Assembly: GCA_025354165.1 (NCBI GenBank)
Contig: JANXNI010000032.1
Span: 186,001 to 250,000 of the forward strand
Direction: 5' to 3'
Source of the DNA: Burkholderiales bacterium
GTDB taxonomy: Bacteria; Pseudomonadota; Gammaproteobacteria; Burkholderiales; Casimicrobiaceae
Length of the DNA stretch: 64,000 bases
Position numbers and translations under genes: made by a program. Below the pieces are notes generated by a model that ran no database searches, was not told the origin of the DNA, and saw only the letters and a list, made by a program, of their open reading frames with translations. Shown here one piece after another: positions 6,403 to 63,746 of this stretch. Position 1 is the stretch's first letter. Every line of letters starts with the position of its first letter.

Positions 6403-6527
6403 CAGTACAGCTTTTTCGTGAAATCGCCTTTGTATGAGGGCTGCGTGCGCGTTTTACCTAAAGTTGACTTACGATCCAATTGCGTTCTTGCCCCGACATT
6501 GACGTTCTTTTACGTAAAAGCTGTAGC
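6403..6527 (+). repeat. AGCTTTT hairpin element R1
   Basis: This copy starts directly after the tauC stop. It has CAGCTTTTTCGTG at the left and ACGTAAAAGCTG at the right as inverted ends, GAGGGCTG and TTGCCCC as an inner pair, and GTTGACTTA near the middle. It lies in the same orientation as tauC, so it would form the 3' end of that transcript. Confidence 0.7.
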
Positions 6528-6530
6528 GTG

Positions 6531-6590
6531 TGGGAGCGGCGAAAGCCGCGAATTCCGGATGTTGACTGCTCGTGTCTTTCGCCGCTCCTA
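6531..6590. repeat. REPIN-like element, copy 2
   Basis: The left arm GGGAGCGGCGAAAGCCGCGAA (6532-6552) is matched by a right arm TTTCGCCGCTCCTA (6577-6590). The right arm contains the TAG stop codon, read on the minus strand, of the HAD-UbiA gene, so the element begins exactly at that gene's end. Confidence 0.75.
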
Positions 6591-8012
6591 AAGCGCCAAT
6601 GCGGTGAACACGGCGACGGCTAGAGCACATCCAATCGACACGCTGTCACGCACGGCAAATATCACCGGATCATCATCCATCGTGCCATTCATCGCCATGC
6701 GCCACATGCGCGCCAGCCACACCAGTACGACCACCGCCACGCCCCACAACCATAGCGGCTCGGCATACATCGCTGCGACCTGTTCACTGGCAATGTAGAG
6801 CGTGAGCACGAGACAGGCCGCGATCGCCGTGCTGATGCCAAATCCGTTGACGAACGCCGCGTCCTTGCCGCTGTAGTCGCGCCCTGGCAGCACTTCATCA
6901 AGGGCCAGCCGATCAATGTCAGCCGCACGCTTCAAGAGCGCGAGACTCAAAAAAGCAAACACCGAAAACGCGACCAGCCACGTCGACAAAGGCACGGCGA
7001 CCGCCGCTGCGCCAGCAACGATTCGTAGCGTGTACAACCCGGCCAGGCAGAACACGTCGAACACGGCCACGCGCTTGAGTCGCACGGTGTAGATCGCGTT
7101 AGCGATCACGTAGAACGCAATGACAGCCCCCACCAGCGGACCGATCCACAACGCCAAAGCAAGGCCGCCGATTAGCAGCACCAGCGAAACCAGCGCCGCC
7201 GTCGCGAGCGACAATTCCCCGGCGGCGAGTGGCCTGCGCCGCTTGGTGGGATGCGCACGATCCGAAGCAAGATCAAACAAATCGTTGACCACATAAACGC
7301 CGGAACACACCGCGCAGAACGCTGCGAACGTGAGTAAAACCGGCAGCCACGTCGCGCCCGCAGCCCACTGGTGGGCAGCGACAGGCGCCACAAATACGAG
7401 CACGTTTTTGACCCAGTGACGAACGCGTAAAAGTTTCACCCAACGCGAAAACGTCCCTGTCGCCACGCCCTGTTCCAGCCGCTCTCCGTCAGCGGGCATC
7501 ACGCTCGAAACGGTTAGTTTGCGCGACGCAACCGCCCACACGGGCAGGTCCGCCTTCGAGTCGCCCACGTAGTCAAATCCGCTTGGCCCAAAGCGGGTCA
7601 CCAGTTGGGCTGCCTTCGTCTGGCCTTTGAGATTGACGGCGCCATCCGACGCCAGCACTTCGTCAAACAAGCCCAATTCGTCCGCGCACGACTGAGCGAT
7701 TCGAACGTTCGCGGCGGTGGCGAGCACGGTACGTTGTCCTGCCGCACGGGCAATCCGCAACGCGTCAATAACCGCAGGATTCCAGGGCAGTTCGGAGACA
7801 TCAGGGAGCGCAATCGCGGCTAACTGATCTTTAAGTGTGCTGCGCCCCGAGAGCATCCAGAACGCACTCGCCAACGGCAGCCACCAGCGCACGCGCCACG
7901 CCGCAAAAAAGCATTCCCACAGCGTATCGGTCCGGCACAAGGTGCCATCGAGATCGACGACCAGCGGTCGTGCAGCGGTGGCGTTTGAAGGCGATGTCGG
8001 CGTATCAGTCAT
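6588..8012 (-). CDS. HAD phosphatase-UbiA prenyltransferase fusion
   Basis: A 474-residue two-domain protein. Residues about 17-190 form a HAD-superfamily domain with motif I DLDGTLCRTD and a late GDSKADLPV acidic motif. Residues about 190-474 are a polytopic UbiA-type prenyltransferase with the first Asp motif NDLFDLASD, the basic PTKRRRPLAAG stretch and the second Asp region DVFCLAGLYTLR. Non-fused relatives include the decaprenyl-phosphate 5-phosphoribosyltransferase of actinobacteria, whose product is dephosphorylated by a separate phosphatase. The fusion suggests that transfer of a phosphosugar to a polyprenyl phosphate and its dephosphorylation are linked in one polypeptide. The true substrate is unknown. 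Confidence 0.8.
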   Translation of the reverse strand: MTDTPTSPSNATAARPLVVDLDGTLCRTDTLWECFFAAWRVRWWLPLASAFWMLSGRSTLKDQLAAIALPDVSELPWNPAVIDALRIARAAGQRTVLATAANVRIAQSCADELGLFDEVLASDGAVNLKGQTKAAQLVTRFGPSGFDYVGDSKADLPVWAVASRKLTVSSVMPADGERLEQGVATGTFSRWVKLLRVRHWVKNVLVFVAPVAAHQWAAGATWLPVLLTFAAFCAVCSGVYVVNDLFDLASDRAHPTKRRRPLAAGELSLATAALVSLVLLIGGLALALWIGPLVGAVIAFYVIANAIYTVRLKRVAVFDVFCLAGLYTLRIVAGAAAVAVPLSTWLVAFSVFAFLSLALLKRAADIDRLALDEVLPGRDYSGKDAAFVNGFGISTAIAACLVLTLYIASEQVAAMYAEPLWLWGVAVVVLVWLARMWRMAMNGTMDDDPVIFAVRDSVSIGCALAVAVFTALAL

Positions 8013-8088
8013 GCAGCGAAAGCAACCGGGGAAATTAGCAGCGCCCTAAGCCTACACGGTCGGCTAACGGTTGGCCTCCGCGACCCGC

Positions 8089-9714
8089 CTACACGTTCAC
8101 ACGAACCACAATCGCGCGGTTTTTTCCCAACAATTTGGCGCGTCGGAGCGCCGCATCCGCCCGCTTGATCAAATAACCAAGAGCTGGCAGCGCCCTGGTT
8201 TGCGCGCATGCTGCGCCGAGGCTCACGGTGACGGCAATGTCGTGACTGCCGTGGCGCATCGGTTCCATCGAAATTTTTGCCAGCATGCGGTTGACGATAG
8301 CGAGCGCAATGCGCGGGCCAACGCCAGGACACAGCACCAAAAATTGGTCGCCGCCGTAACGACCCAGCAAATCGTTGGCGCGCAAACTTTGCCGCATGCG
8401 ATCCACCAGCATCGAGAGCACCCCATCGCCCGCCGCGTGACCGAACTGCTCGTTGACTGCCTTGAAGTCATCAACGTCGAGCATCACGAGCGTTACTGGC
8501 TGTTGCTCGCCCGACGCGACGCGCATGACGGCGGTTTCAAACGCCTGGCGATTGAGCGCACCAGTCAGTGAATCGCGCGATGCCTGCTTCGCTACCTTTT
8601 CGGCGTCAACCCGTGATTCCAGCAGACGCAAAGTGAGTGCGCTGACGGCCTCCGATTCGCGGCGACCGCGCGATTCGGTGCGCTCCACGTCTTCGACACA
8701 ACGAGTGGCGATTCGCTGCCCCTCCATCTCGATCTTTTTCGCGTCCGCCTGAGCAACGAGGAAGTCATCGATCATTGCAAGCGCGGCCGTCGCATCCCCC
8801 TGTTGCTGCGCCAATCGCGCGCGCGCCAGTGACACCGTGGCATGCAAGTCTTGCAACGATCCGTTATGCGACAACTCGTTCGCTTCGGTCAGCGTTTCGC
8901 CAGCCAGCGCAACCTCGCCGCGCCTCACCAAAAGCTCCGCGATATCGACCAGAACATGCAGCAGCACCCGCGTGTTTTGTGACTTCTTCAAGAGCGGTAC
9001 GGCAGTTTGCAAATCGATCAGTGCAGCGTCGCCATCACCGCTGGAAGTGGCAATCTCGGCGCGCGTATGCAGGAGGTATGGCAAGCACTCGCGGTTCGTT
9101 TGATCGTTAAGACTGTTGATCGCGACGTCGATTTTTTCCTGCGCTTCGGCAAGCTTGCCGACGAATCGGTACTCGCGCGCAATGTTGTTCAATGCCGCCG
9201 ATTGGGCAGCGACAAGCTTCAATTCGATCGACAATGTTTCCGAGCGCTCGAACAGCGATAGAGCAATGTCGTGTTCGCCCAGCAGCGAATACACCGCCCC
9301 CAGTCTCGACGCCAACTTCGCAACATCAATCATGCATTGTTCCTGCTCAGCAACGTGGATCGCCTCACGCAAAGAACGAACAGCCAGAGGGTAGTTGTGT
9401 AAAGACGAATGAACGTCGCCGTTGACCGCCAGGAACGGAATTCGGTCAACCGACTTTCCGTTGCGGTGACAGACCTCCAGCCCGCGCTGACCAAATTGCA
9501 GTGCGTCAAGCCAGCGCCCCGCCGCCTGACAACCGGACGCGCATGCGCGCAGAACGAGCAGCAATTCGTCCGTCGAAAAGCGCTCGGCATGCTCATCGAG
9601 CAACGCCTCTCCGCGCTCCAGCGAAGCCACACTCTGACCCTGCGGCGCAGCGCGCAAAAACGCTATCTCAGCGGCAATATGCTGTTGTCCTTTTGTAGGT
9701 TTTGCTGTCGACAT
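8089..9714 (-). CDS. TPR-GGDEF protein with a degenerate GGDQF motif
   Basis: A 541-residue soluble protein with no signal peptide or membrane span. The first 330 or so residues are helical and TPR-like, a short linker follows, and residues about 385-541 form a GGDEF domain (DSLTGALNR, LDVDDFKAVNEQFGHAAGD). The active-site motif reads GGDQF instead of GG(D/E)EF. The RxxD inhibitory-site motif (RAND) sits at the normal five-residue distance upstream. It is either a diguanylate cyclase with an altered metal-binding residue or a c-di-GMP-binding regulator. It is transcribed alone; neighbours give no clue to the signal. Confidence 0.85.
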   Translation of the reverse strand: MSTAKPTKGQQHIAAEIAFLRAAPQGQSVASLERGEALLDEHAERFSTDELLLVLRACASGCQAAGRWLDALQFGQRGLEVCHRNGKSVDRIPFLAVNGDVHSSLHNYPLAVRSLREAIHVAEQEQCMIDVAKLASRLGAVYSLLGEHDIALSLFERSETLSIELKLVAAQSAALNNIAREYRFVGKLAEAQEKIDVAINSLNDQTNRECLPYLLHTRAEIATSSGDGDAALIDLQTAVPLLKKSQNTRVLLHVLVDIAELLVRRGEVALAGETLTEANELSHNGSLQDLHATVSLARARLAQQQGDATAALAMIDDFLVAQADAKKIEMEGQRIATRCVEDVERTESRGRRESEAVSALTLRLLESRVDAEKVAKQASRDSLTGALNRQAFETAVMRVASGEQQPVTLVMLDVDDFKAVNEQFGHAAGDGVLSMLVDRMRQSLRANDLLGRYGGDQFLVLCPGVGPRIALAIVNRMLAKISMEPMRHGSHDIAVTVSLGAACAQTRALPALGYLIKRADAALRRAKLLGKNRAIVVRVNV

Positions 9715-10210
9715 AGCGCACAGTGTAGCGGCGCGAAGCCGCTGTGCGACACGGGCGTTTTAGTCTGCGGATCGCCCGCTGAGATACGACCGCTGTGCCG
9801 CGTGGCTCGACAAGCAGCTTCGTGCTGGACGTGCCCCGCGTAGCGCTCCCGCAGACACTTAAAGTTCCGATGCTCTAGCACTTTCGTCCGCCCATAGAAC
9901 ACTGGTACATCGCTCGGCGCCCCTTCCATCGCGCGGCAACGCCGCTACTCATGATCTCATCACGCCCGGATGCATGATCCGCGCGGAGATCAACGTCGGA
10001 AATGGCGCGCCTCCTTATGTAAGCTGCCTCCTACAGTCATCATCGGTTTAAACCGATCGACATGAACGGTTGGCTGAATAGCATCGTAATTGTGTGTAGC
10101 CAACGCGTTTGTGTGATGCAATGGTGGCAAGTTCACAACTATTTTCACGACAATAAATCAAGAGTCTCCCGGTCGCTAAATGAGCGGTGGGATTTTCAGG
10201 AGTATTCCCA
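9715..10210. other. Intergenic region between divergent genes
   Basis: This 496-base stretch separates the TPR-GGDEF gene from the lipoprotein pair. I find no convincing gene in it. It holds a GC-rich imperfect hairpin near 9716-9750 (AGCGGC/GCCGCT) and a perfect palindrome at 10042-10057. An AT-richer segment (about 10110-10170) should contain the promoter for the lipoprotein operon. Confidence 0.6.
10042..10057. promoter_or_regulatory. Perfect 16-bp palindrome, possible operator
   Basis: ATCGGTTTAAACCGAT is a perfect palindrome about 155 bases upstream of the lipoprotein gene start, flanked by a further TCAT/ATGA match. The form fits a dimeric regulator's binding site. No regulator gene is adjacent, so the assignment rests on the palindrome alone. 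Confidence 0.4.
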
Positions 10211-10615
10211 ATGAACAGCAAGCTGAAATTGTCCGTCTCCGAAAAATCGATCGCGCGGTGGAGAACCATTTCGCTGCTTCTGGCGTTTGCGCTCACTGCA
10301 TGCTCCACCATTCCTGCGCCGGTCGAACAGATGGCCGTGAGCAAAGTAGCGGTTGACCGCGCATCATCATCGCCCAATGCGGTTGAGGCCGCGCCCGTCG
10401 AGCTGCAGAAAGCCAGAGAAAAACTTGATCGCGCACAGCGCGCCATGACCGAGAAAGACTACGTGCTTGCTCGTCGAATGGCGGAACAGGCAGAAGTCGA
10501 CGCCCGCGTCGCGGAGTCTCGTGCAAGTTCAGCGCGCGGGGAGCGAGCGTTGAGAGAGGTTCAGGAAAGCAGTCGAGCTTTGCAGGAAGAAATCAACCGT
10601 CGGGTGCCGCGTTAA
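10211..10615 (+). CDS. DUF4398-type lipoprotein
   Basis: A 134-residue lipoprotein: the signal peptide ends in the lipobox LTAC, with Cys at about residue 31, followed by a helical, charged domain (ELQKAREKLDRAQRAMTEKDYVLARRMAEQAEVDARVAE) typical of DUF4398 proteins. I chose the ATG at 10211 because CAGGAG lies eight bases upstream; the frame extends eight codons further. It lies 55 bases before an OmpA-domain lipoprotein containing a similar helical region, and the two are probably co-transcribed envelope components. The exact role of DUF4398 is not established. Confidence 0.75.
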   Translation: MNSKLKLSVSEKSIARWRTISLLLAFALTACSTIPAPVEQMAVSKVAVDRASSSPNAVEAAPVELQKAREKLDRAQRAMTEKDYVLARRMAEQAEVDARVAESRASSARGERALREVQESSRALQEEINRRVPR

Positions 10616-10670
10616 CAGAGCGCAGATTGTTGCCGCACAGCGACCACGTTCAACAAAGCGAAAGCCAATC

Positions 10671-11717
10671 ATGAATTTTCAGCAGTCAGTCCCAACACAC
10701 AAACGTCTAACCAGCGTGGCAATGGCGTTAATCGTAGCCGGTGCGATATCGGCATGCGCGAGCACCGCTACCAACCCCGATATCGAAAACGCACGCTCTG
10801 TGGTTACCCAAACAGCAGCAAACCCTGAAGTCAACCGTCGCGCACCGTTAGAGATAAAACTGGCACGTGACAGTATCGACAGAGCTGACGCCGCATGGAA
10901 GAACGACCACGATGACACAGAAGCGAGTCATCTAGCCTATCTCGCCACGCAGCGCGCCGAGATAGCGCACTATCTCGCTCGATCGCGTCAGGTTGACGAG
11001 GACGTAAAGGACGCCAATAGCGCAAGCGACAAGCTGCGGCTGGAAGCACGCACGCGTGAGGCCGAGCAGGCAAGGCTGGCGGCGCAAAATGCGCGCGGTC
11101 AGGCGGCCTCAGCGCAAATGGAAGCTAGAGAAGCTCAAGCGCAAGCAGCCACGGCGCAACAGGATGCACTCGCTGCCGGTCGTATGGCGGCCGCGGATCG
11201 CGCGCAGTCGGTCGCAGCGCAAGAAGCTGCGGCAGCGGAGCGAGCAAGAGCGGATCAGGCATCTACCGCTGCCAACACAGCACAAGAGCGCGTACGTCAA
11301 CTCGAAGAACAGTTACGAGATATCGAAGCGAAGCAAACCGAACGTGGCTTGCTAGTGACGTTGGGTGATGTTTTGTTCGCGTTTAACAAGGCCGAACTCA
11401 CGGTGCAGGCAGGTCCAAGGCTCGACAAGCTCGCATCGTTTTTGAAGCAGTTTTCGCAGCGCAAACTACTAATCGAAGGCTACACCGATGGCGTTGGCGG
11501 TGACGCTTACAACAATGAACTATCGGAACGGCGCGCCGAATCGATTCGCGACGCATTGGTTCTTCGTGGTGTGGCCCCAACGCGCATCATTACAAAAGGG
11601 TACGGCAAAGCTTATCCGGTTGGTGATAACGCAAGCTCTGAAGGCCGCGCCATGAACCGTCGCGTCGAAGTGGTGATCGCCGATGAACGCGGGTTGCTTA
11701 AAGGCCGCGGCGTTTAA
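10671..11717 (+). CDS. OmpA-family lipoprotein with DUF4398-like and coiled-coil region
   Basis: A 348-residue protein with lipobox ISAC (Cys near residue 29), a DUF4398-like helical segment (about 35-115), an Ala/Gln/Glu-rich coiled coil (about 115-225) and a C-terminal OmpA peptidoglycan-binding domain (about 228-340; GYTDGVGGDAYNNELSERRAESIRDAL). It should be lipid-anchored in the outer membrane and bind peptidoglycan across a helical spacer. It follows a smaller DUF4398 lipoprotein and ends in a good terminator, so the two form a short operon. Confidence 0.85.
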   Translation: MNFQQSVPTHKRLTSVAMALIVAGAISACASTATNPDIENARSVVTQTAANPEVNRRAPLEIKLARDSIDRADAAWKNDHDDTEASHLAYLATQRAEIAHYLARSRQVDEDVKDANSASDKLRLEARTREAEQARLAAQNARGQAASAQMEAREAQAQAATAQQDALAAGRMAAADRAQSVAAQEAAAAERARADQASTAANTAQERVRQLEEQLRDIEAKQTERGLLVTLGDVLFAFNKAELTVQAGPRLDKLASFLKQFSQRKLLIEGYTDGVGGDAYNNELSERRAESIRDALVLRGVAPTRIITKGYGKAYPVGDNASSEGRAMNRRVEVVIADERGLLKGRGV

Positions 11718-11731
11718 GCGACGCGTACCGC

Positions 11732-11757
11732 AAAGGGCACCTATGGGTGCCTTTTTG
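11732..11757 (+). terminator. Rho-independent terminator after the OmpA-family gene
   Basis: Stem GGCACC/GGTGCC with a four-base loop, followed by TTTTT. It closes the two-gene lipoprotein operon. The AAA run on its left would let it work weakly on the other strand too. Confidence 0.8.
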
Positions 11758-11793
11758 TTGGGGCCGACATGTCTCGCGCGGCTATTGTGTGCT

Positions 11794-12423: not shown

Positions 12424-12605
12424 AGCGAACCAGCCTTTCAACGCCAAACCAGAATGATTTGTTGGTGGCCCCCATTCCAACACGGTTCAGCACAAAAGGT
12501 GATTCGTGTGGATCGTCGTTGCCGACGTGATTTGCAATGAAGCGATGACAGGTTTAGCAAAGCAACGAAGTGCCGGGAGCGCCTGAGTGAACTGTCGACT
12601 ATAGG

Positions 12606-12923: not shown

Positions 12924-13066
12924 TCACCGTTAGTCGATAAAAGCCGGTTTATTTTGAGATTTATCCAAGGAACCGGCTGCACGCTTCGCGCTCACATTTC
13001 TCCACGTGAGTGCCGAGAGGTTGCCTGCATCCGCGGCCACGCCCTGGAACGCATCCAATTAAAGTG

Positions 13067-13339: not shown

Positions 13340-13343
13340 CGGT

Positions 13344-13655: not shown

Positions 13656-13714
13656 TAATTAATTGTACAGTCAAATAATTGAGCCTCAATCTGCATTGTT
13701 CGTGATTCGGTTAC

Positions 13715-13753: not shown

Positions 13754-13808
13754 ACGAACGGTCGCTGGAACAAGCCAAGAACCGAACAGAACGAGATGGA
13801 TGCAAGGC

Positions 13809-13852: not shown

Positions 13853-13883
13853 AACGCGGCAGACGCTCGTTATGTTCGTGTTC

Positions 13884-15650
<1,767 letters not shown>

Positions 15651-16307: not shown

Positions 16308-16435
16308 GGTGAACAGCTTTTGCCTGATATCATTATTAGGTAGAGACTACAGTCTCATATTGTTAATAGTCGACTTATTTGTTTTTACGTGATCAGCCCC
16401 CGTATATCTTTGGTTGTAGCAAAAAGCTGAATAGC
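16308..16435 (-). repeat. AGCTTTT hairpin element R7
   Basis: Read on the minus strand it starts with TTCAGCTTTTTGC, continues with CGGGGGCTGATC and AAGTCGACTATT, and ends with GGCAAAAGCTGTTCACC. It lies in the divergent region between groES and the creatininase-like gene, the only copy not downstream of a gene end. It occupies most of the region upstream of the groES -35 box. Confidence 0.65.
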
Positions 16436-18693: not shown

Positions 18694-18704
18694 GGAAGGC
18701 CGAT

Positions 18705-18764
18705 GTCGGAGCGGCGAAAGCCGCGAATCTCTGCTGATGATTTCGCGGCTTGCGCCGCACCTAC
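18705..18764. repeat. REPIN-like element, copy 3
   Basis: Left arm GTCGGAGCGGCGAAAGCCGC (from 18705) and right arm GATTTCGCGGCTTGCGCCGC (from 18738) are imperfect reverse complements. It follows the beta-propeller gene and precedes hairpin element R2. Confidence 0.75.
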
Positions 18765-18790: not shown

Positions 18791-18919
18791 GTGAGTAGCT
18801 TTTACGTAGAAGCTTTATCACATTGGGGCTAAGCCCCTAAAACACTATTTCTCGACTTTAGTAATTATTGCGCGTCAGCCCATGTGCAACAAGGGTTATA
18901 CGCAAAAGCTGTTACTCAC
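18791..18919 (+). repeat. AGCTTTT hairpin element R2
   Basis: The outermost arms GTGAGTA/TACTCAC are perfect complements. Inside them lie GCTTTTACGTA and TACGCAAAAGC, then CACATTGGGGCT pairing with AGCCCATGTG, with TCTCGACTTTAG near the centre. The different but still complementary outer arms compared with R3 are evidence for a conserved fold. It ends 14 bases before the next gene. Confidence 0.75.
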
Positions 18920-29795: not shown

Positions 29796-29928
29796 CCAGT
29801 CAGCAGCTTTTTATTCAATGCGCCATTGCATTGGGGCTGGGTTGGTAAAACGGTGTATATCGACTTTCGACGATTTACCGATTCAGCCCCAGTACAGCGG
29901 TTCGTTCACCGAAAAGCTGTATGACTGG
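29796..29928 (+). repeat. AGCTTTT hairpin element R3
   Basis: This is the most complete copy. CCAGTCAGCAGCTTTT at the left pairs with AAAAGCTGTATGACTGG at the right. TTGGGGCTG pairs with CAGCCCC, and GGTAAA pairs with TTTACC, leaving TCGACTTTCGA at the tip. It can fold as one long hairpin of about 133 bases. It lies between the aminotransferase promoter region and the 3' end of gpmI. Confidence 0.8.
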
Positions 29929-29987: not shown

Positions 29988-31544
29988 TTACAGCTTGGGG
30001 CGCAGCAACGTCTCGCCCGTCATTTCGGTGGGTTTCGCGAGTCCCATCATCGCCAGCAGCGTCGGCGCGATGTCGCGCAGCGCGCCGCCTTCGCGGATCG
30101 TCACGGCATCCGGGCCGACGTAGACGAGCGGGACTTTGTCGGTGGTGTGTTGCGTGTGCGCCTGATGCGACGCCGGGTCATACATTTGTTCGCAGTTGCC
30201 ATGATCAGCGGTGATCAGCACTTGCGCACCGCTCGCCTTGGCCGCGAAGATCACTTGGGCGAGCGCGACGTCGAGCGCTTCCACGGCCTTGACTGCGGCG
30301 GGCAGGATGCCAGTGTGGCCGACCATGTCGCCGTTGGCGTAATTGCAAATGATGGCGGCGTATTTTTTCGATTGGATCGCATTGATGAGTTTACTCGTGA
30401 CTTCTGGCGCGCTCATCTCGGGTTGCAGGTCGTACGTCTCGACCTTGGGCGACGGCACCATGATGCGGTCTTCGCCCGCATACGGTTTTTCGCGTCCGCC
30501 CGAGAAAAAGTACGTCACGTGAGCGTACTTTTCGGTCTCAGCAATGCGTAGTTGTGCGAGGCCGTTCGCCTCCAGTACCGCGCCGAGATCGTTGACGATG
30601 GCGTCGTTCCTAAACGCCACCGGCAACACGGCATAAGCATCACCGTAATGAGACAGACAGACGAAGCGTGCGAGCTTTGGCATGTGTCGCTCAAACCCGG
30701 TGAAACTCGCGTCCGTCAGCGCGGTGGTCAGCTGGCGCGCACGATCAGCGCGAAAGTTCATGAACACGACCACATCGCCGTCTTTCATGGGTGCACCGTG
30801 GCCAATGACGGTGGGCTTGACGAATTCGTCGTTTTCGTCCCTCGCATAGGCCGCTTGCAGCGCGGCCAAAGCACTGGATTCAAAGTGATCAGACGTCGCC
30901 TCCACCAGCGCGTGATACGCGGGCGCAACACGCTCCCAACGCTTGTCGCGATCCATCGCATAAAAGCGCCCGCTGACGGTGGCGATGTGTGCGCCGGTCT
31001 CATGACATACGGCCTGCATCGCCTCAATGAACGGGGCTGCGCTACGCGGTGGTGTATCCCGACCGTCGAGAAACGCATGCACTGCGATGCGCTGCACGCC
31101 GCGCGCTGCCGCCATGCGCACCATCGCGTGGATATGCCGCTCATGCGAATGCACGCCACCGGACGAGAGCAAGCCGAGCACGTGCAACGTCGAACGGTTG
31201 TTTTTCGCTGTGTCGCACGCGTCGACCAGCGCGGCGTTAGCTTGAAATTCGCCGGTTTCCAGAGCATGATCAACACGCGTCAAATCCTGATACACGACGC
31301 GGCCTGCGCCGAGATTCAGGTGACCCACTTCGGAATTTCCAAACTGGCCTTTCGGCAGGCCAACGTACTGCTCGGATGCATCAATGAGCCCGTGCGGGCA
31401 TTCACGCCAGATCGCATCCCAAACGGGCTTTTTAGCGAGCGTAATCGCGTTGTCCAGCGCCGGTTCGCGATAGCCAAAGCCGTCGAGAATGATGAGGACA
31501 ACCGGGCGAGCGGGCAAATTGGCGAGGGCGGCTGAAGCGGGCAT
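29988..31544 (-). CDS. gpmI: 2,3-bisphosphoglycerate-independent phosphoglycerate mutase
   Basis: A 518-residue enzyme of the alkaline phosphatase superfamily, normal length for GpmI. It shows LIILDGFGYRE (first metal Asp), the phosphoserine in GNSEVGHLNLGAGR, LDGRDTPPRSA, FMNFRADRARQ and the late metal motif ADHGNCEQM. It interconverts 3- and 2-phosphoglycerate in glycolysis, using Mn. ATG 31544 starts MPASAALANLPARPVV; the frame is open 19 codons upstream. It is divergent from the rhodanese-grxC-secB group; the same neighbourhood often holds a phosphoglycerate mutase gene in betaproteobacteria. Confidence 0.95.
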   Translation of the reverse strand: MPASAALANLPARPVVLIILDGFGYREPALDNAITLAKKPVWDAIWRECPHGLIDASEQYVGLPKGQFGNSEVGHLNLGAGRVVYQDLTRVDHALETGEFQANAALVDACDTAKNNRSTLHVLGLLSSGGVHSHERHIHAMVRMAAARGVQRIAVHAFLDGRDTPPRSAAPFIEAMQAVCHETGAHIATVSGRFYAMDRDKRWERVAPAYHALVEATSDHFESSALAALQAAYARDENDEFVKPTVIGHGAPMKDGDVVVFMNFRADRARQLTTALTDASFTGFERHMPKLARFVCLSHYGDAYAVLPVAFRNDAIVNDLGAVLEANGLAQLRIAETEKYAHVTYFFSGGREKPYAGEDRIMVPSPKVETYDLQPEMSAPEVTSKLINAIQSKKYAAIICNYANGDMVGHTGILPAAVKAVEALDVALAQVIFAAKASGAQVLITADHGNCEQMYDPASHQAHTQHTTDKVPLVYVGPDAVTIREGGALRDIAPTLLAMMGLAKPTEMTGETLLRPKL

Positions 31545-31661
31545 AAGTGCAATCGAAAAGAAGCAACGCGGAGCGCAGGACTGGAAATAACGCAGAAACA
31601 CCTAAAATTCTAGGCTTCCGGAGGTTTCCAGCCTCCAGCTATCGCAAAGTCCAACTCACCC

Positions 31662-36337: not shown

Positions 36338-37519
36338 ATGATGAACCGCAGAAATTTTTTGACCACCGTCGGCGCTGGCGTTGGTGTGATGGCGTTGCCC
36401 ACCTTCCCGACGTTTGCGCAATCCACCTTTCCAGGCGGCTACAAGCGCCTGCTGATTCTGGTGGAGCTAAGGGGCGCGAATGACGGCCTGAATACTTTCA
36501 TTCCGTACGGCGATGAGGCGTACGCCGCGTTGCGCCCCACCATCGGCATCAAGCGCGATCAGGTGCTGCAGGTTTCCGACAAATTCGGCCTGCATCCCGC
36601 GCTCGACACGCTGATGCCGATCTGGAACAAGGGCGAAATGGCGGCGGTTACCGGTCTCGGCTATCCGCAGCCGAATCTGTCGCATTTCCGCTCGATTGAG
36701 ATTTGGGACACGGGGTCGAACTCCAACCAGTATTTGAACGAAGGCTGGCTGGCACGCGCGTTCGATTCGGTCGCGCCGCCGAAATCATTTGTTGCCGATG
36801 GCGTCGCGATTGGTGGCGGCGATCTCGGCCCGTTTGCGGGCGGCGCGATGGGTTCGCGCGCCTTGTCCATCGCCTCCACCGACGCGTTTTTGCGCCAGGC
36901 CAAGCTCGCCGATCCGCATGGCCGTGCCAGCAATTCGGCGCTGCAACACATTCTGAAAATTGAAGGCGAAGCGCAATCCGCCGCGCTCAACATTGACCCT
37001 AAAGTCACGCTGAAAACCGAATTCCCGACGCACGCCTTCGGTCAGCAGGTGAAGACCGCCATGCAGGTGGTTGCCGCCTCTCCGGGCGTCGCCGCGCTGC
37101 GCGTGGGCCTCGGCTCGTTCGACACCCATCAGGGCCAGCTCGGCACGCAAGCGGGCCTGCTCAAACAGCTCGGTGAAGGCATCAAAGCGATCAAAGATGC
37201 CAGCGTCGAGCTTGGTCGCTGGCAGGACGCAGTCGTCGTCACCTACTGCGAATTCGGCCGCCGCGCTAAAGAAAACCAAAGCGCCGGCACCGACCACGGT
37301 ACCGCCAACACCCAGTTCGTCCTCGGCGGCGCAGTCAAAGGCGGCATCAAAGGCACGCATCCGTCCCTCACGCAATTGACCGGCGAGGGCAACTTCGTGC
37401 ACAGCGCGGACTACCGCTCGCTGTACGCGAGTTTGCTGCGCGACTGGTGGGGATTTTCAGGCGCTCAGAGCGAAAAAGTTCTGGGCGGGAAGTACGGTTC
37501 GATTCCGTTGTTTGCTTAA
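36338..37519 (+). CDS. DUF1501 Tat-exported protein
   Basis: A 393-residue protein with a twin-arginine leader (MMNRRNFLTTVGAGVGVMALP) and DUF1501 landmarks: LVELRGANDGLNTFIPYGDEAYAALRP, FGLHPALDTLMPIW, GLGSFDTHQGQLGTQAGLLKQL and VVVTYCEFGRRAKENQSAGTDHGT. DUF1501 is a sulfatase/alkaline-phosphatase-like fold, and the late Asp/His residues may bind metal. It is translated just after DUF1800. Its TAA stop is the first triplet of hairpin element R4. Confidence 0.9.
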   Translation: MMNRRNFLTTVGAGVGVMALPTFPTFAQSTFPGGYKRLLILVELRGANDGLNTFIPYGDEAYAALRPTIGIKRDQVLQVSDKFGLHPALDTLMPIWNKGEMAAVTGLGYPQPNLSHFRSIEIWDTGSNSNQYLNEGWLARAFDSVAPPKSFVADGVAIGGGDLGPFAGGAMGSRALSIASTDAFLRQAKLADPHGRASNSALQHILKIEGEAQSAALNIDPKVTLKTEFPTHAFGQQVKTAMQVVAASPGVAALRVGLGSFDTHQGQLGTQAGLLKQLGEGIKAIKDASVELGRWQDAVVVTYCEFGRRAKENQSAGTDHGTANTQFVLGGAVKGGIKGTHPSLTQLTGEGNFVHSADYRSLYASLLRDWWGFSGAQSEKVLGGKYGSIPLFA

Positions 37520-37600
37520 CAGCTTTTTGCTGTAGCTCTTATTTAATAAGGGCTAACAGCCGATTAGGGCGAAAGTCGATCTCAGATTGGCAAAGCCACC
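37517..37600 (+). repeat. AGCTTTT hairpin element R4 (partial)
   Basis: Beginning with the DUF1501 stop codon: TAACAGCTTTTTGCTGTAGC, then TAAGGGCTAACAG and AAAGTCGATCTC. The right-hand AAAAGCT end is missing; a different palindrome starts at about 37610. The orientation matches the upstream gene. Confidence 0.6.
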
Positions 37601-51978: not shown

Positions 51979-52103
51979 CGCATCAGCTTTCACACGAAAT
52001 GACCTATTTATTTGGGATAACAACGTATATTTCGATAAGTCGACTATTAGCAAAATCAAGCGATAGCCCCCACATAATAGCCATTTCATGCAAAAGCTAC
52101 TCG
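51979..52103 (-). repeat. AGCTTTT hairpin element R5
   Basis: On the minus strand it begins GAGTAGCTTTTGCATGAAAT, where TAG is the stop codon of the BepA-like gene. It continues with TGTGGGGGCTATCGC and ATAGTCGACTTATCG, and ends with CGTGTGAAAGCTGATG. The same orientation as the upstream gene suggests a 3'-end role. It also fills the region upstream of the RND operon. Confidence 0.7.
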
Positions 52104-56608: not shown

Positions 56609-56628
56609 TAGGACGTGCAGTGCCCACC

Positions 56629-57585: not shown

Positions 57586-57682
57586 GTCAGCCTCGGTTAT
57601 TCTCTTGATTCACACCAATCATGCAGTCAGGATGATTATCGCGTGATGCGACCTCAAGCTTCGACCGCCAACTCAAATTGCC

Positions 57683-59119
57683 ATGACCACACACTTCATT
57701 AACAACGAGCGCGTCGCGGGCAGCTCGGGCGAATCCATTCCGGTGCTCGACCCCAGCGACGGTCAGGTTTTCGCGCATCTCGCGCGCGGCAACGCAGAGG
57801 ACATTCGCAAAGCGGTCGCCGCCGCGCGCGAAGCGACAGACGGTGGCGCATGGAGCCGCCTCGCACCGATGCAGCGCGGTCGCCTGCTACACAAGCTCTC
57901 GGAGAGCATCCTCGCGCATCATGACGAGTTGACGCATCTCGAAATGCGCGATTGCGGCAAGCCCGTCAAACAAGCGAAGGCTGACACCACGGCGGTCGCG
58001 CGCTACTTCGAATACTACGCCGGGGCCTGCGACAAACTGCACGGCGACACCATTCCGTACACGCCGGGTTTCGCGGTCATGACGTTCTACGAACCGCACG
58101 GCGTGACGGGCCACATCATCCCGTGGAACTACCCGATGCAGATATTCGGACGCTCAGTCGGCGGTGCGCTCGCTGCGGGCAACGCATGCGTGGTGAAGCC
58201 GGCAGAGGACGCCTGTTTGTCGCTGCTGCGAATTGCTGAACTTGCAGCAGCGTGCGGTTTTCCCGACGGCGCGCTCAATATCGTCACGGGTTATGGGCAC
58301 GAAGCGGGACAGGGGCTCGCCGACGCAGTTGGCATCGATCACATCAGCTTCACCGGCAGCGCCAGAGTCGGTACGATCATCGCGCAAAGCGCAGCCACGC
58401 GGCACCTCCCCGTCACGCTGGAGCTAGGCGGCAAGAGCCCACAAATCGTTTTCGCCGACGCCGATCTGGACGAGGCCGTCCCCGTCATCGTCAACGCCAT
58501 CATTCAAAACGCCGGACAGACATGCAGCGCCGGATCGCGCCTGCTGGTGGAGGCGAGCGCGTATGAGCGCGTGCTCGAAGCGGTCGGTCAGCGAATCAAT
58601 GCGCTCAAGGTTGGGCCCGCCGCGATGGATCTGGACGTCGGCCCGTTGATTCGCGCGAATCAGTTGGAGCGCGTGAATGGATTTTTGAGCGGGGCGAAGG
58701 CTGCAAACCTGCGAACGATTGCTCAAGGCAGCATCGCGACCGAAGCTCCCGCAACCGGTTTCTACGCTAAACCAACACTAATTGCCGACGTACCGGTCGA
58801 CGCAAAACTGGCCCAGGACGAAGTCTTCGGTCCAGTCCTCTCGGCTATGTCGTTCAAGGATGAGGCCGATGCAGTGCGCCTCGCGAACGCCACGGAATAC
58901 GGACTTGTCGCAGGCGTCTGGACGGAAAACGGCGGTCGCGGAATGCGCATGGCTCGCGCGGTAAAAAGTGGGCAAGTGTTCATCAACAACTACGGTGCGG
59001 GCGGCGGTGTTGAACTGCCGTTCGGCGGCGTGAAGTCTTCAGGCTACGGGCGCGAAAAAGGGTTTGAGGCCTTGTATGGGTTTAGTGTTTTGAAGACGGT
59101 AGTAGTCAAGCACGGGTAG
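57683..59119 (+). CDS. Aldehyde dehydrogenase
   Basis: A 478-residue NAD-dependent ALDH. Landmarks are GVTGHIIPWNYPMQIFGRSV (cofactor and Asn), the general-base Glu in VTLELGGKSPQIV, the catalytic Cys in NAGQTCSAGSRLLVE, and the QDEVFGPVLS motif. All active residues are present. It resembles betaine/gamma-aminobutyraldehyde/phenylacetaldehyde-type enzymes; substrate unknown. An SDR gene follows on the same strand after two repeat elements, and the two may act on related alcohols and aldehydes. Confidence 0.88.
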   Translation: MTTHFINNERVAGSSGESIPVLDPSDGQVFAHLARGNAEDIRKAVAAAREATDGGAWSRLAPMQRGRLLHKLSESILAHHDELTHLEMRDCGKPVKQAKADTTAVARYFEYYAGACDKLHGDTIPYTPGFAVMTFYEPHGVTGHIIPWNYPMQIFGRSVGGALAAGNACVVKPAEDACLSLLRIAELAAACGFPDGALNIVTGYGHEAGQGLADAVGIDHISFTGSARVGTIIAQSAATRHLPVTLELGGKSPQIVFADADLDEAVPVIVNAIIQNAGQTCSAGSRLLVEASAYERVLEAVGQRINALKVGPAAMDLDVGPLIRANQLERVNGFLSGAKAANLRTIAQGSIATEAPATGFYAKPTLIADVPVDAKLAQDEVFGPVLSAMSFKDEADAVRLANATEYGLVAGVWTENGGRGMRMARAVKSGQVFINNYGAGGGVELPFGGVKSSGYGREKGFEALYGFSVLKTVVVKHG

Positions 59120-59140
59120 CGATGTTGCCACTTTTGCCGC

Positions 59141-59168
59141 CGTCATTCCCGCGAAGGCGGGAATCCAG
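59141..59168. repeat. GTCATTCCCGC-type palindrome, single unit
   Basis: CGTCATTCCCGCGAAGGCGG followed by GAATCCAG forms a 27-base palindromic unit of the common intergenic repeat also seen at 37610-37717. It is the best-conserved unit in the window and lies just after the ALDH gene. Confidence 0.7.
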
Positions 59169-59195
59169 TTCGTAATCCATGCGAAGCGCAAATTA

Positions 59196-59320
59196 TTCCC
59201 CTCGGGGATTGCGGGAAAGGGTTGCGGTGAGGGATTTGTATTCCGTTCGTGGTGAACTTGTCAAACCATGAACGGAAGACAACGCCCTCACCCAAGTCTT
59301 CTCCCGCAACGTGCGAGGGG
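59196..59320. repeat. CCCTCACC-type long inverted repeat, copy 2
   Basis: The outer arms (59196-59235 with GCGGGAAAGGGTTGCGGTGA; 59283-59320 with CCCTCACCCAAGTCTTCTCC) pair, and the inside continues as TTCCGTTCGTGGT/ACCATGAACGGAA. The whole can fold as one long hairpin. It precedes the SDR gene by about 80 bases. Confidence 0.65.
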
Positions 59321-59398
59321 ACAGAAGTGCGCTTCGCGTCGATTACGCCCTCAATCCCCGTCCCGGCTACCATGCAACCAATGCAAAGGGAGATCACT

Positions 59399-60169
59399 AT
59401 GCGTTTAAAAGGCAAAGTCGCCGTCATCACCGGTGGCGCTCAGGGATTTGGTTATGGCATCGCCGTGCGCTTCGTGCAGGAAGGCTGCGGCGTGATGCTG
59501 GTGGACGTGAATGGGGCAGCGGCCGAACATGCGGTGGCCCAGCTTCAGGCAGTGGCGCAGGCGGCTGGCGCGCCGCCGGTGGTGGCGCAACAGGCGGATG
59601 TGTCGAAAGCGGAAGATTGGGACGAGCTGGTGAGCGCCGCGCTGGTGGCGTTTGGCCGCATTGACATCGTGGTGAACAACGCTGGGGTGTCACACAAAAA
59701 TCAGCCGATGCTTGAGGTCGATGAAACCGAGTTTGATCGCGTCTACGCGACCAATGTGAAGTCGATTTATCTCTCGGCGAAATACGTCGTGCCGGTTTTC
59801 CGTTCGCAGCACGGGGGCTGCTTTGTGCAGATCGCGTCGACGGCTGGCGTGCGGCCACGTCCGGGGTTGACCTGGTACAACGGGTCGAAAGGCGCGGTGA
59901 TTGTGACCAGTAAATCGATGGCCGTTGAGCTGGCAAAGGACAAAATTCGGGTGAATTGCATCAACCCTGTTGCGGGTGAAACGCCGCTGTTGGCGACGTT
60001 CATGGGCGAGGACACGCCGGAAAAGCGGGCGCTGTTTACGGCGTCAATTCCGCTCGGGCGATTGTCGACGCCTAGGGACATTGCCAACGCGGCGCTGTTC
60101 CTTGCCAGTGACGAAGCCGAGTTCATCACGGGAGCGTGTCTTGAGGTGGATGGCGGGCGCTGCGTTTGA
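59399..60169 (+). CDS. Short-chain dehydrogenase/reductase (FabG-like)
   Basis: A 256-residue SDR: TGGAQGFGYGIAVRF cofactor loop, VDVNGAAAEHAV, NNAGVSH, catalytic TWYNGSKGAVIVTSKSMAVELA and the C-terminal TGACLEVDGGRCV. Catalytic Tyr and Lys are present. ATG 59399 has AGGGAG six bases upstream and gives the normal N terminus; a longer frame extends into the upstream repeat. The substrate is unknown, but a role beside the ALDH in an alcohol/aldehyde route is plausible. Confidence 0.88.
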   Translation: MRLKGKVAVITGGAQGFGYGIAVRFVQEGCGVMLVDVNGAAAEHAVAQLQAVAQAAGAPPVVAQQADVSKAEDWDELVSAALVAFGRIDIVVNNAGVSHKNQPMLEVDETEFDRVYATNVKSIYLSAKYVVPVFRSQHGGCFVQIASTAGVRPRPGLTWYNGSKGAVIVTSKSMAVELAKDKIRVNCINPVAGETPLLATFMGEDTPEKRALFTASIPLGRLSTPRDIANAALFLASDEAEFITGACLEVDGGRCV

Positions 60170-60244
60170 TGGATGCCTTCTGCCGCAAGGCGTAGAGGGC
60201 CCTGACCCGCAATCGTCTATCCTCAGGGTTAGGAGGAAAGCAAC

Positions 60245-61873
60245 ATGGCAAAGTCACTGTCCGGGCTCGACGCGTCGTTTCTTTATCTGGAGACGCCAGA
60301 GCAGCCGATGCATGTCGCGAGCTTGTGCCTGTACGAGGTACCGCCGGAGCTCAAACACGATTTCGATGCTGAAGTCGTCGCCCATCTAAAACGGCGGCTT
60401 CATCTCGCGCCGATCTTCACCAACGTGCTGGCTCATGAGAAATATGGGCTCGGACATCCGCACTGGGAGCATGTCGACGAGGTGGATTTCGACTATCACG
60501 TGCAACATATCAAGGTGCCAAAGCCGGGCTCGATGCGTCAGCTCGAAGCAGCGGTGGCCAAGGAGCATGCGCGCCTGCTGGACCGCTCGCAACCGCTTTG
60601 GCAGTTCACGGTGTTCACGGGATTGAAGACCGGCGAGATTGGTTTCTACGGCAAAGTGCATCATGCCGCGCTCGACGGCAAAGGCGGCATGGTGCTCGCC
60701 AATTCGATCCTCGATTTGACGGGAACGCCACGCGAAGTGCCGCCCGCCGTCGCGCGCGCCGCTCCGCCGAAAACCAGCATGAAAATCGGTGAAATGATTG
60801 GGGCGGCGTTCTCCAACTCGCTCGCGCAATACGCGAAGATTGCCAAGTCGCTGCCGAGCCTGGCCGGTGCTGTGGCTCAGGCCGCATCGCCAATGCTCAA
60901 GAAGGCGATGTCGAACCGCAAAGTGCCGTTCAATTTCGCGCCACGCACGCCGTTCAACGTGAACATTTCGGCGAAGCGAAATTTCTCGACCGCGACTTTG
61001 TCTTTCGCGGAAACGCGCGCGGCAGCCAAGGTGTTGGGCGGTTCGGTGAACGACGGCGTGCTGTTCGTCTGCGCGTCCGCACTGCGCACGTATCTCAAGT
61101 CGCACAACGCGTTGCCCAAAAAAACACTGGTCGCCGCGATGCCGGTGAGCCTGCGCGAAGAGAGCAACAAAGAGCTGAATAATCAGGCGTCGATGGTGCT
61201 TGCGGAGCTGGGCACCCATCACGGCGATGCGGCGAAGCGCTGGACGGCGATCCTGACCTCGACCAACAAGATCAAGGAGTCGCTCAAGAGCCTCAAAAGC
61301 GTGTTGCCGACCGATTATCCGGGATTGCTCGCACCACTGATGGTGTCGCGGCTGAACGCGGCGGTAGCGAGCACCAAATTGATGGAGCGCTTGCCGCCCG
61401 TCGCCAACGTGGCGATCAGCAATGTGCCGGGGCCGCAGGTACCGCTGTATCTGGCGGGCGCACAGATGAAAACGTTTTTCCCGGTGTCGATTATCACGCA
61501 TGGTCTGGCGTTGAACATCACGGTGCAAACGTACTGCGGACGCATCGATTTCGGAATCGTCGCCTGCAAAGAAGCGGTGCCCGATCTGCACGATTTTGCG
61601 ACGGCGATTTCGGGTGGCTTCGATGAACTCGTTGCGCTCGCTGAGGCAAAAGTAGCGCTCGAAAAAGAGCGTGGTGAAGTGCTGGAGATTGCGGTGAATG
61701 CGCCGCTGCCTGTTACTAAAACTAAAGCAGCGCCACAGCCGAAAGCAAAGCCCGCCGCGAAAGGTGCCGCTAAAGCCGCGCCCAAAGCGACCATTAAAAG
61801 CGCCACCAAGCGAAAGCCCGCCACGCAGCCAACGAGCAAGACGCCGTCGGCCAAAAAATCCCGAAGCGTTTGA
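60245..61873 (+). CDS. Wax ester synthase/DGAT-family acyltransferase with histone-H1-like tail
   Basis: A 542-residue WS/DGAT: N-terminal SGLDASFLYLETPEQPMHV, active site HHAALDGKGG (HHxxxDG), and the C-terminal domain with NVPGPQVPLYLAGA and GLALNITVQTYCGRIDFGI. It transfers acyl-CoA to long-chain alcohols or diacylglycerol to make storage lipids. The last 55 residues are nearly all Lys, Ala, Pro, Ser and Thr (KAAPQPKAKPAAKGAAKAAP) and resemble histone H1-like AlgP tails. AGGAGG lies close upstream of the ATG. Confidence 0.9.
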   Translation: MAKSLSGLDASFLYLETPEQPMHVASLCLYEVPPELKHDFDAEVVAHLKRRLHLAPIFTNVLAHEKYGLGHPHWEHVDEVDFDYHVQHIKVPKPGSMRQLEAAVAKEHARLLDRSQPLWQFTVFTGLKTGEIGFYGKVHHAALDGKGGMVLANSILDLTGTPREVPPAVARAAPPKTSMKIGEMIGAAFSNSLAQYAKIAKSLPSLAGAVAQAASPMLKKAMSNRKVPFNFAPRTPFNVNISAKRNFSTATLSFAETRAAAKVLGGSVNDGVLFVCASALRTYLKSHNALPKKTLVAAMPVSLREESNKELNNQASMVLAELGTHHGDAAKRWTAILTSTNKIKESLKSLKSVLPTDYPGLLAPLMVSRLNAAVASTKLMERLPPVANVAISNVPGPQVPLYLAGAQMKTFFPVSIITHGLALNITVQTYCGRIDFGIVACKEAVPDLHDFATAISGGFDELVALAEAKVALEKERGEVLEIAVNAPLPVTKTKAAPQPKAKPAAKGAAKAAPKATIKSATKRKPATQPTSKTPSAKKSRSV

Positions 61874-61931
61874 GCATTAACTCAACCGCGTCCCGTTAAG
61901 ATCATCCCGGAACATTTTCCGCAGAGTCACT

Positions 61932-62717
61932 GTGCCCAATCAAACTGTTAACGAAAAAGCACCGAACCCTTTCCTGATGGCGCTGGAAGCGCGGGCTCCG
62001 TGGGAGTGGGGGGTAGCGCTCGCCGCGTGGCCCATGCTCAAGATGATGGGCACATGGCCTAAACCTTCTGCCGCAATGGGCGAGCCGCAGCACGTCATCG
62101 TGTACCCCGGTCTCGCGGCGGGCGACGCGTCGACACAACCGCTCCGCGCCTTTCTGAAAGACTTGGGCTACGAGGTTCATGGTTGGTATCAGGGCATGAA
62201 TCGCGGGCCGCGCAAAGGCGTGCTGGAGCGCATGCAGGAGCAACTGGAGGCGGTTCACAAAGACACGCAGCAGCCGGTGTCGCTGATTGGCTGGAGCCTC
62301 GGCGGCGTGTATGCGCGTGAAATGTCGAAGCTGGCGCCAAAGGCGGTGCGCAATGTGATCACGCTGGGCACGCCGTTCGCAAAGAGTCCGCGTTCGACCA
62401 ACGCCTGGCGCGTGTATTCGATGCTCTCGGGCGAGACGTTGCCGGATGAGCTGATGCTGCGCGCCATCGCCGAAGCTCCGCCGGTGCCCTACACCAGTCT
62501 GTATTCAAAAACCGATGGCGTGGTGGCCTGGCCTTCGAGTATTCAACAGCCTGATGCGAAGAATTCCGCCATCGAGAACATTGAAATTTTTGCCAGCCAT
62601 CTGGGCATCGGCGCGAACCCGGCCGCATGGTACGTGATCGCTGATCGTCTGGCGCAACCGCCCGGTACGTGGAAAGCGTTTTCGCCGCCGATGGGCGCGC
62701 GCTTTCTGTTCGGTTAG
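61932..62717 (+). CDS. Alpha/beta hydrolase (esterase/lipase-like)
   Basis: A 261-residue hydrolase, GTG start. The nucleophile elbow is LIGWSLGGVYARE with Ser; VIVYPGLAAGD precedes it; a late SHLGIG supplies the His region and Asp is in SKTDGVVAW. It resembles PGAP1/lipase-like hydrolases found beside WS/DGAT genes. No signal peptide is present, so it is likely cytosolic. It lies 58 bases after the WS/DGAT gene and 12 bases before a second hydrolase, which suggests a lipid-metabolism operon. Confidence 0.8.
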   Translation: MPNQTVNEKAPNPFLMALEARAPWEWGVALAAWPMLKMMGTWPKPSAAMGEPQHVIVYPGLAAGDASTQPLRAFLKDLGYEVHGWYQGMNRGPRKGVLERMQEQLEAVHKDTQQPVSLIGWSLGGVYAREMSKLAPKAVRNVITLGTPFAKSPRSTNAWRVYSMLSGETLPDELMLRAIAEAPPVPYTSLYSKTDGVVAWPSSIQQPDAKNSAIENIEIFASHLGIGANPAAWYVIADRLAQPPGTWKAFSPPMGARFLFG

Positions 62718-62729
62718 AGCGCTGCACGT

Positions 62730-63620
62730 ATGAAAGTCAAATCAAACGGCCTCGACTTCGAGGTCGAAATCAACGAGCCGGGACGCCCTGATGGCGCGCC
62801 CACGGTGCTGCTCATCATGGGCCTCGGTATGCAGTTGGTGGCGTGGCCGCCTGAATTCGTGAAAGCCTTGACCGACGCGGGCTATCGCGTGGTGCGGCTG
62901 GACAATCGCGACATCGGTTTGTCACACAAAACCACGGTAAAAGTACCGAACCTGGCATGGATGGGTCTTAAATTTCGACTTGGTCTGCCGATTCGTACCG
63001 CCTACACGTTGCGCGACATGGTGGAGGACACGCGCGGCGTACTCGACGCACTGAACATCACGCGCTGCCACGTCATTGGCGTGTCGATGGGCGGCATGAT
63101 TGCGCAGGGGCTCGCGAGCCATCATCCGGATCGCGTGCTCTCCCTGACCAGCATCATGAGCACGACCGGTGCACGCGGATTGCCGCAGGCGACGCCAGCC
63201 GCTACGATGGCTTTGTTGAAACGCCCGAAAAGCCGCAAGCGTGAAGACATCATCGAGCACTTTGTGAAAGTGCTCACCGTGATTGGCAGCCCGAAATATC
63301 CGATGATCGAAGCGGAAACGCGTCAGCGCATCGGTGAAGCGTTCGACCGCTCGTTTTATCCCGCAGGCACGATCAAGCAAATGGGCGCGATCATGGCCTC
63401 GGGTGATCGCAGCAACGAGGTGCGCAAAATCACTGCGCCGACGCTCGTGATTCACGGCAAGGACGATCCGCTGGTGCCTTTGAAGAACGGTGAAGACACC
63501 GCAAAAAAAATCGTCGGCAGCGAATACACCGAGATCGACGGCATGGGCCACGACCTGGGTGTACTGCCAGTTTTGATTGAGCGAATACTGCCATTTTTGC
63601 GGGCGCATACGCCCGTCTGA
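62730..63620 (+). CDS. Alpha/beta hydrolase (DhaA/3-oxoadipate enol-lactonase-like)
   Basis: A 296-residue alpha/beta hydrolase: nucleophile GVSMGGMIAQGLA, acid in HGKDDPLVPL, catalytic His in DGMGHDLGVLP, and the oxyanion region NRDIGLSHKT. It is a soluble hydrolase of the carboxylesterase/enol-lactonase group. Twelve bases separate it from the preceding hydrolase, so they are co-transcribed with the WS/DGAT gene. A storage-lipid turnover role is inferred from context. Confidence 0.82.
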   Translation: MKVKSNGLDFEVEINEPGRPDGAPTVLLIMGLGMQLVAWPPEFVKALTDAGYRVVRLDNRDIGLSHKTTVKVPNLAWMGLKFRLGLPIRTAYTLRDMVEDTRGVLDALNITRCHVIGVSMGGMIAQGLASHHPDRVLSLTSIMSTTGARGLPQATPAATMALLKRPKSRKREDIIEHFVKVLTVIGSPKYPMIEAETRQRIGEAFDRSFYPAGTIKQMGAIMASGDRSNEVRKITAPTLVIHGKDDPLVPLKNGEDTAKKIVGSEYTEIDGMGHDLGVLPVLIERILPFLRAHTPV

Positions 63621-63635
63621 TCAAAGCAACTTCGC

Positions 63636-63746
63636 GTTGAAACGCTTACTTTAAAAGGGGCGGCGGCCAATAGGTGCAAAAGTCGACTTTTACAAAAATT
63701 AGCCGGTAGCCCCTGTGCAATGGTCGATTCCCGAAAGAGCTATTGC
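63636..63746 (-). repeat. AGCTTTT hairpin element R6
   Basis: On the minus strand it begins GCAATAGCTCTTTCGGG, where TAG is the stop codon of the Bug-type gene. It continues with CACAGGGGCTACCGG and AAAAGTCGACTTTTGC, and GCCCCTTTTAAAG pairs with the AGGGGC part. The right-hand AAAAGCT end is degenerate. The orientation again follows the upstream gene. Confidence 0.6.

Follow-up and report, generated by a model that had tools for sequence, protein, structure and literature searches.

An evenly spaced, two-fold-symmetric intergenic element in a genus of Burkholderiales: a candidate DNA-wrapping site

We asked what kind of element recurs between the genes of the window, a stretch of 64,000 nucleotides from a Burkholderiales bacterium (contig JANXNI010000032.1, positions 186,001 to 250,000) whose genus is probably uncultured. 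The original prediction had counted seven copies of a hairpin-like family there and proposed that it could be either mobile, in the manner of a miniature inverted-repeat transposable element (MITE) or a REPIN (a hairpin of repetitive extragenic palindromic, REP, sequences), or a structured RNA. Our analysis points to DNA instead: the element is a two-fold-symmetric site of 114-116 bp in which two 57-bp half-sites face each other about a central TCGA, and its sequence features make it likely that it is a protein-bound site of some kind, kept by selection. Which protein binds it is a more tentative matter, for which gyrase is our leading candidate.

Is the family real? A sequence-only model run on both strands found a copy at all seven places in the window (E 4e-22 to 7e-10; its training copies included 1, 2, 3, 4 and 6 but neither 5 nor 7). 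The genome to which the window belongs, G000, comprises 4.72 Mb in 97 contigs. When two of these contigs, C72 and C4 (560 kb in all), were searched end to end with a profile, 59 merged matches resulted, 54 of them at E < 0.01, with a clear gap between the weakest accepted copy (35.5 bits) and the strongest rejected one (12.7 bits). This is one copy per ~10.4 kb and, if the 560-kb sample is typical, roughly 450 copies per genome. The pattern AGCTTTTN{90,120}AAAAGCT occurred 128 times in G000 compared to 3 times for its reversed control, and where whole-genome model searches gave a count of 150 for a genome, this stands for at least 150. The scan for further copies that the original prediction had called for thus found many more, far above chance, and its view of a real, unrecognised, high-copy interspersed family was borne out. 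No title or abstract opening described such a family in the literature searched, a search that mostly did not extend to subscription journals.

A clear excess of the pattern was confined to the genus of the window. Among 16 congeners, eight had 25-102 matches (controls 0-3) and eight had 0-8 (controls 0-4), while 23 genomes of other genera had 0-2 (controls 0-3; G033 had 1 compared to 0). The elements fall into class 1, with GGGGCT-type arms, class 2, with GGTCGTT-type arms, and class 3, with a TTTTCGAAAA-type centre; the class-1 model reached E 1e-6 in 15 of the 17 genus members including G000, the two others being G010 and G016. In a wider contig scan the real matches among those listed came from metagenome-assembled genomes labelled Burkholderiales, Betaproteobacteria, Proteobacteria or Pseudomonadota, and four of its 80 loci (L027, L078, L089 and L098) looked chance-like by eye.

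Next, we determined how the element is built. Exactly 114 bp were found in 53 of 62 full-length copies; these 53 form the set used for the information, pairing and target-duplication statistics, the nine of other lengths having been dropped, and 21 further copies that are not full length bring the distinct copies to 83. The same motif reads on both strands, each half-site following WWCAGCTTTTnnnTGAAAnnnCCnnTnnATnGGGGCTA-(variable)-WWWW-(variable)-AAAGTC. Together the columns hold 104 bits of information, whereas ~13 bits would be enough to single out 450 sites in a genome of 4.7 Mb. Part of the 53-copy set had been picked by exact ends or top score, and we therefore give also the value for 21 copies whose choice depended neither on exact ends nor on use in model training, 102 bits; these were still detected by a model trained on copies chosen by ends or score, and five of the 21 have both exact ends. 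The columns are nearly independent of one another, and several accept A or T without choice between them (positions 43-45, C+G ≤8%) beside columns that are nearly random. An integron attC site was considered and rejected: the ends are CAGCTTTT/AAAAGCTG, not the RYYYAAC/GTTRRRY boxes of a cassette array, and the copies lie ~10 kb apart.

The copies are placed and spaced in an unusual way. Gene positions and intergenic status rest on our own crude calling of open reading frames, by which 53 of the 54 copies in G000 could be placed: 18 lay in convergent, 25 in co-directional and 10 in divergent gaps. Since 28, 89 and 47 such gaps of at least 130 bp were available, convergent gaps are favoured. 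Two of the 53 copies ran a few bases into a called gene end, and 46 of 480 called genes had an element within 60 bp of the 3' end. G005, another genome, had 31 copies in 400 kb (8 convergent, 15 co-directional and 8 divergent, with 20, 88 and 45 gaps available, and one overlap). In both genomes tested the spacing was more even than chance. Its coefficient of variation in G000 was 0.64, compared to 0.91-0.99 for random intergenic picks (P 0 to 0.003, 4000 draws), and only 3 of 52 gaps between copies were shorter than 3 kb where ~12 were expected; in G005 it was 0.56, compared to 0.92-0.95 (P < 0.001, 5000 draws), and 2 of 30 gaps were shorter than 5 kb where ~10 were expected.

The sequence next to the element is also patterned. 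The flank letters are nearly free, yet their AT content rises and falls every ~11 bp, phased to the dyad. Compared to 600 sets of element-free intergenic sites, detrended, the AT power 4-60 bp from the edge exceeded all controls both in G000 (53 copies) and in G005 (the 24 of its 31 copies whose ends could be recognised). It was still raised at 40-80 bp (P 0.003 in G000, 0 of 600 controls in G005) and at 60-100 bp (P 0.003 and 0.04), and was gone at 80-120 bp (P 0.06 and 0.74). Phased AT is typical of DNA wound on protein, as in nucleosomes and with gyrase (PMC6379681, PMC11626157).

Can such sites be followed from genome to genome? The seven copies of the window are the following (bit scores from the models; the motif reads alike on both strands).

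Copy 1, 6409..6522: full 114-bp dyad, 70.9 bits, E 4.6e-21; between convergent genes, a TauC-like permease ending at 6402 and a UbiA-family gene ending at 6588 (NCBIfam).
Copy 2, 16315..16428: full 114-bp dyad between divergent genes, 61.8 bits; orthologous copy in G001.
Copy 3, 18797..18910: full 114-bp dyad with an extra outer inverted repeat, GTGAGTA/TACTCAC, 68.4 bits; orthologue in G001.
Copy 4, 29805..29918: full 114-bp dyad with an extra outer inverted repeat, 74.3 bits; directly 3' of gpmI (29988-31601, minus strand).
Copy 5, 37515..37584: truncated, left half only, 35 bits, model positions 3-72; its counterpart in G001 is full length (L190:4039-4165).
Copy 6, 51985..52098: full 114-bp dyad between bepA-like and mdtA-like genes (NCBIfam), 67.7 bits; orthologous copies in G001, G006 and G012.
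Copy 7, 63628..63741: ends approximate and degenerate, 49-51 bits; shortly after a gene end (62730-63620, plus strand).

The claim that all seven are intergenic held with a tolerance of a few bases at gene ends. The terminal pair AGCTTTT/AAAAGCT, which had been ascribed to every copy, is exact and 114 bp apart in copies 1-4; copy 6 starts with AGCTTTC, copy 7 has degenerate ends and copy 5 lacks its right half, so that for these three the description did not hold.

In G001, the nearest relative of G000, all six copies that we compared (2-7) have a counterpart at the same place, as do copies 6 and 7 in G006 and G012. In G012 no match was found at the place of copy 5 and only a 13.5-bit trace at that of copy 4; the interval between copies 2 and 3 is shortened in G006 and G012, with one copy there in each. 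These two genomes own further copies that are missing from G000. An element lies beside the orthologue of window position ~22620 in both (L183:1837-1957 and L189:2323-2445) and none does in G000; this difference is a gain or loss event. The gene end at copy 7 could be read in 10 genomes including G000 (in G010 the contig ends, and six genomes gave no gene match). It was occupied in seven, the copy lying 3-47 bp past the matched gene end, and empty in G004, G013 and G015, while the protein itself is 65-91% identical in the six relatives with a copy. Occupation in six of nine relatives has P 5e-5 at the rate of 46/480 if the genomes are treated as independent, which related genomes are not.

The letters at these places change with the lineage. 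At copy 7 the element is of class 1 in five genomes, of class 2 in G008 (91 compared to 14 bits) and of class 3 in G011. Likewise, a class-1 copy follows gpmI in G000 and G001 and a class-2 copy in G008; 13 other genomes, for most of which gene order was left unchecked, showed none there. (G011 has a 27-bit class-3 match 1 kb beyond the gpmI place, and a second, partial gpmI-like locus in G015 has a 31-bit match ~1 kb on.) Aligned orthologous copies keep little outside the motif. Since the same places are occupied by different classes, fixed sites carry their lineage's own letters. Across seven species sets the AT/GC profile is shared (core r 0.89-0.99, arms r 0.70-0.97), and the flank AT profile correlates with that of G000 in four of them (r 0.57-0.85).

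The dyad, the spacing, the phasing, the retention and the letter switching fit a selected DNA site that would be wound by a two-fold-symmetric complex. We read the element as a DNA-wrapping site with gyrase as the most likely wrapper, and give this reading as a whole a probability of about 0.4. A dimeric complex would bind the central 30-odd bp (WWWW..AAAGTCGACTTT..WWWW) and bend both arms, with their GGGGCT- and AGCTTTT-type blocks, around itself, and the wrapped path would run on into the phased, non-conserved flanks. The extrapolated ~450 sites, which recur about every 10 kb and often lie at the 3' ends of genes, would split the chromosome into similar stretches, be kept by selection and serve either as anchors where gyrase removes the positive supercoils that pile up at gene ends or as domain boundaries. 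A lineage-specific partner that reads the arms would probably be needed too.

Gyrase is favoured because of a similar geometry and period, the placement at gene ends and the lack of ParC above its cut-off. The E. coli gyrase motif is symmetric over 130 bp, with a 36-bp centre that receives a 4-bp staggered cut, two 47-bp arms and a GC period of 10.75 bp, and AT minor grooves face the protein (PMC6379681, PMC11626157); for our elements the last feature is a prediction. Our elements resemble this motif and the strong gyrase site (SGS) of phage Mu in having a dyad centre, a probable ~36-bp core and two arms; an AT/GC period near 10.75-11 bp is clean in our elements in the flanks only. Gyrase is also associated with regions downstream of transcription units (PMC6379681, PMC11626157, PMC12393610). 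GyrA matches were found in 17 of 17 genus members (only fragments in G003, G006, G014 and G015), and the wrapping domain is present; a comparison that left out G012, G024 and G030 found no special feature in this domain. Beyond the wrapping domain, GyrA of the genus has a short C-terminal tail (12 genomes could be read), compared to longer, often acidic tails in the six genomes from other families that could be read. A search for ParC gave no match above the curated family cut-off in any of the 17 genus members, several of the genomes being incomplete. The same negative was obtained for six of the seven genomes that represent the rest of the family, one of which is 68% complete; the seventh, G020, has a ParC. 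Overall, 13 of 40 genomes exceeded the cut-off. Topoisomerase IV thus appears to be lacking in most of the family, and the genus may rely on gyrase as its only type II enzyme, as judged by searches for two A-subunit families, with no search for ParE.

Several observations weigh against gyrase or against wrapping. A plain Fourier fit restricted to the conserved arms yields periods of 7.3-9.5 bp rather than ~10.75 bp, the conserved blocks not being a clean sinusoid, and the phased flanks extend past the ±65 bp of the gyrase motif. Three sets, class 2 (20 copies), JAFEDD (4) and G011/G015 (7), showed no correlation of their flank AT profile with the G000 profile. None of the six family genomes outside the genus that have no ParC above the cut-off shows pattern matches beyond its control. 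The printed gyrase motif, derived from cut sites, is degenerate, whereas our elements are many near-consensus copies with ~100 bits of specific letters and with arms that switch between lineages. Finally, G008 and G000 differ in their arm letters, yet their GyrA proteins are 93-94% identical; lineage-specific letters combined with a nearly constant GyrA argue for an additional or a different reader.

Such a reader is the core of the strongest alternative, which we consider a serious if less than even possibility: the element could be the site of a genus-specific, sequence-reading architectural factor of the nucleoid, unrelated to gyrase, with a fast-evolving DNA-binding part. The high, letter-specific information content would be expected of such a site, as would the switch of the arms from GGGGCT- to GGTCGTT-type, and of the centre to the TTTTCGAAAA-type, while places and geometry stay unchanged. 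The class-2 half-sites each hold an inner palindrome, AACGAC..GTCGTT, which suggests a dimeric arm reader, and the lack of a notable pattern excess in the 23 genomes outside the genus also agrees with a genus-specific factor. Against it, we know of no architectural protein with a dyad site this large. The most far-reaching form of this idea is a chromosome-wide, even grid of nucleosome-like wrapping sites whose architectural reader changes specificity by lineage, so that hundreds of fixed sites would switch letters in concert without any shift in position, spacing or geometry; we regard it as rather unlikely. Bacterial supercoil domains are of the order of 10 kb, and how bacteria set their size is an old open question. 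If such a grid existed at supercoil-domain spacing, encoded in and visible from sequence and comparable across species, this question would become directly testable, and the genus would offer a natural experiment in the co-evolution of hundreds of sites with their reader. The chromosome-organising sites matS and parS are likewise dispersed, fixed dyads; a protein reads them, as we predict for our elements. They are ~13-16 bp and regional, whereas our elements are ~8 times longer and present on every long contig examined.

Could the element nevertheless be mobile, as first proposed? A MITE-like family whose members are two long terminal inverted repeats joined directly, evenly spaced through target immunity and set at gene ends through an insertion preference, would explain the high copy number, the dyad, the intergenic placement and the lineage-specific subfamilies. 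It would also explain why some places are empty in relatives, including gene ends in more distant congeners. Size, inverted-repeat layout and intergenic copies are indeed shared with MITEs such as ERIC or Correia. However, counts of target duplications in 53 copies (lengths 2-10, offsets 0-4) were close to expectation, the sole notable cell of 45 being one 6-bp match compared to 0.04 expected. No pair of copies was unusually alike: similarity reached at most 16 of 24 variable sites, and 20 shuffled sets reached 14-16. Conserved and random columns adjoin instead of decaying uniformly, and the gene end at copy 7 is still occupied where the protein is 65-91% identical. With the over-regular spacing and the retention of places with lineage letters, these results leave MITE- or REPIN-like mobility unsupported; a MITE is already disfavoured, and we hold it to be improbable.

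The remaining alternative, a structured RNA, a transcription terminator or a cruciform-forming REP/REPIN, is very improbable: although four of the seven window copies fold better than shuffles (z < -2.7; copy 4 z -8), although seven of 19 predicted pairs in the seven copies show a double change and although the 12 most variable column pairs show a weak pairing excess (211/636 compared to 185, P 0.015), pairing across the dyad over all 60 column pairs was 1757/3180 compared to 1745 expected from column composition (P 0.29), no credible helix appeared among 9045 column pairs in 53 copies, the covariation term on the seven copies alone was unfavourable and no Rfam family reached its gathering score within the window. 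The single z > 3.2 among the 9045 pairs rests on two of the 53 copies, with rare letters. The compensatory outer arms noted at first are present in two copies (GTGAGTA/TACTCAC and CCAGTCA/TGACTGG) and are not general across the family, as a flank inverted repeat of at least 6 bp occurred in 3 of 53 copies compared to 1.2 in shuffled flanks (P 0.12). The lack of overall covariation, of general target duplication and of recent duplicates together indicates neither an RNA hairpin nor an active MITE. It had also been held that the family would be a chance resemblance if covariation were absent; this rule does not hold, since it is the DNA letters and not their pairing that are constrained, and the family is real despite the absent covariation.

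BIME-2/REP repeats of E. coli are like our elements intergenic and often at gene ends. REPs are short hairpin palindromes with a unit of about 20-40 nt, whereas our elements are 114-116 bp long, single, evenly spaced and not maintained as hairpins, with no overall pairing constraint. BIME-2 repeats are enriched for gyrase cuts and are preferentially cut by the enzyme (PMC6379681).

Two smaller observations were made. The single matching IMG/VR contig (12.5 kb) carries a class-1 element at L267:8843-8957 (53 bits) beside repressor-like, primosomal-like and tail-protein matches and an ATP-dependent DNA ligase; it is reminiscent of the phage Mu gyrase site and could also be host flank. A second repeat, of the TGTGGGAGCGGCGAAAGCCGCGAATTC-type, lies close to two elements of the window (6529-6572 and 18704-18747), with a similar GTAGGAGCGGCTT-type unit in L166; the TGTGGGAGCGGCGAAAGCCGCGAATTC-type repeat resembles classical REP units.

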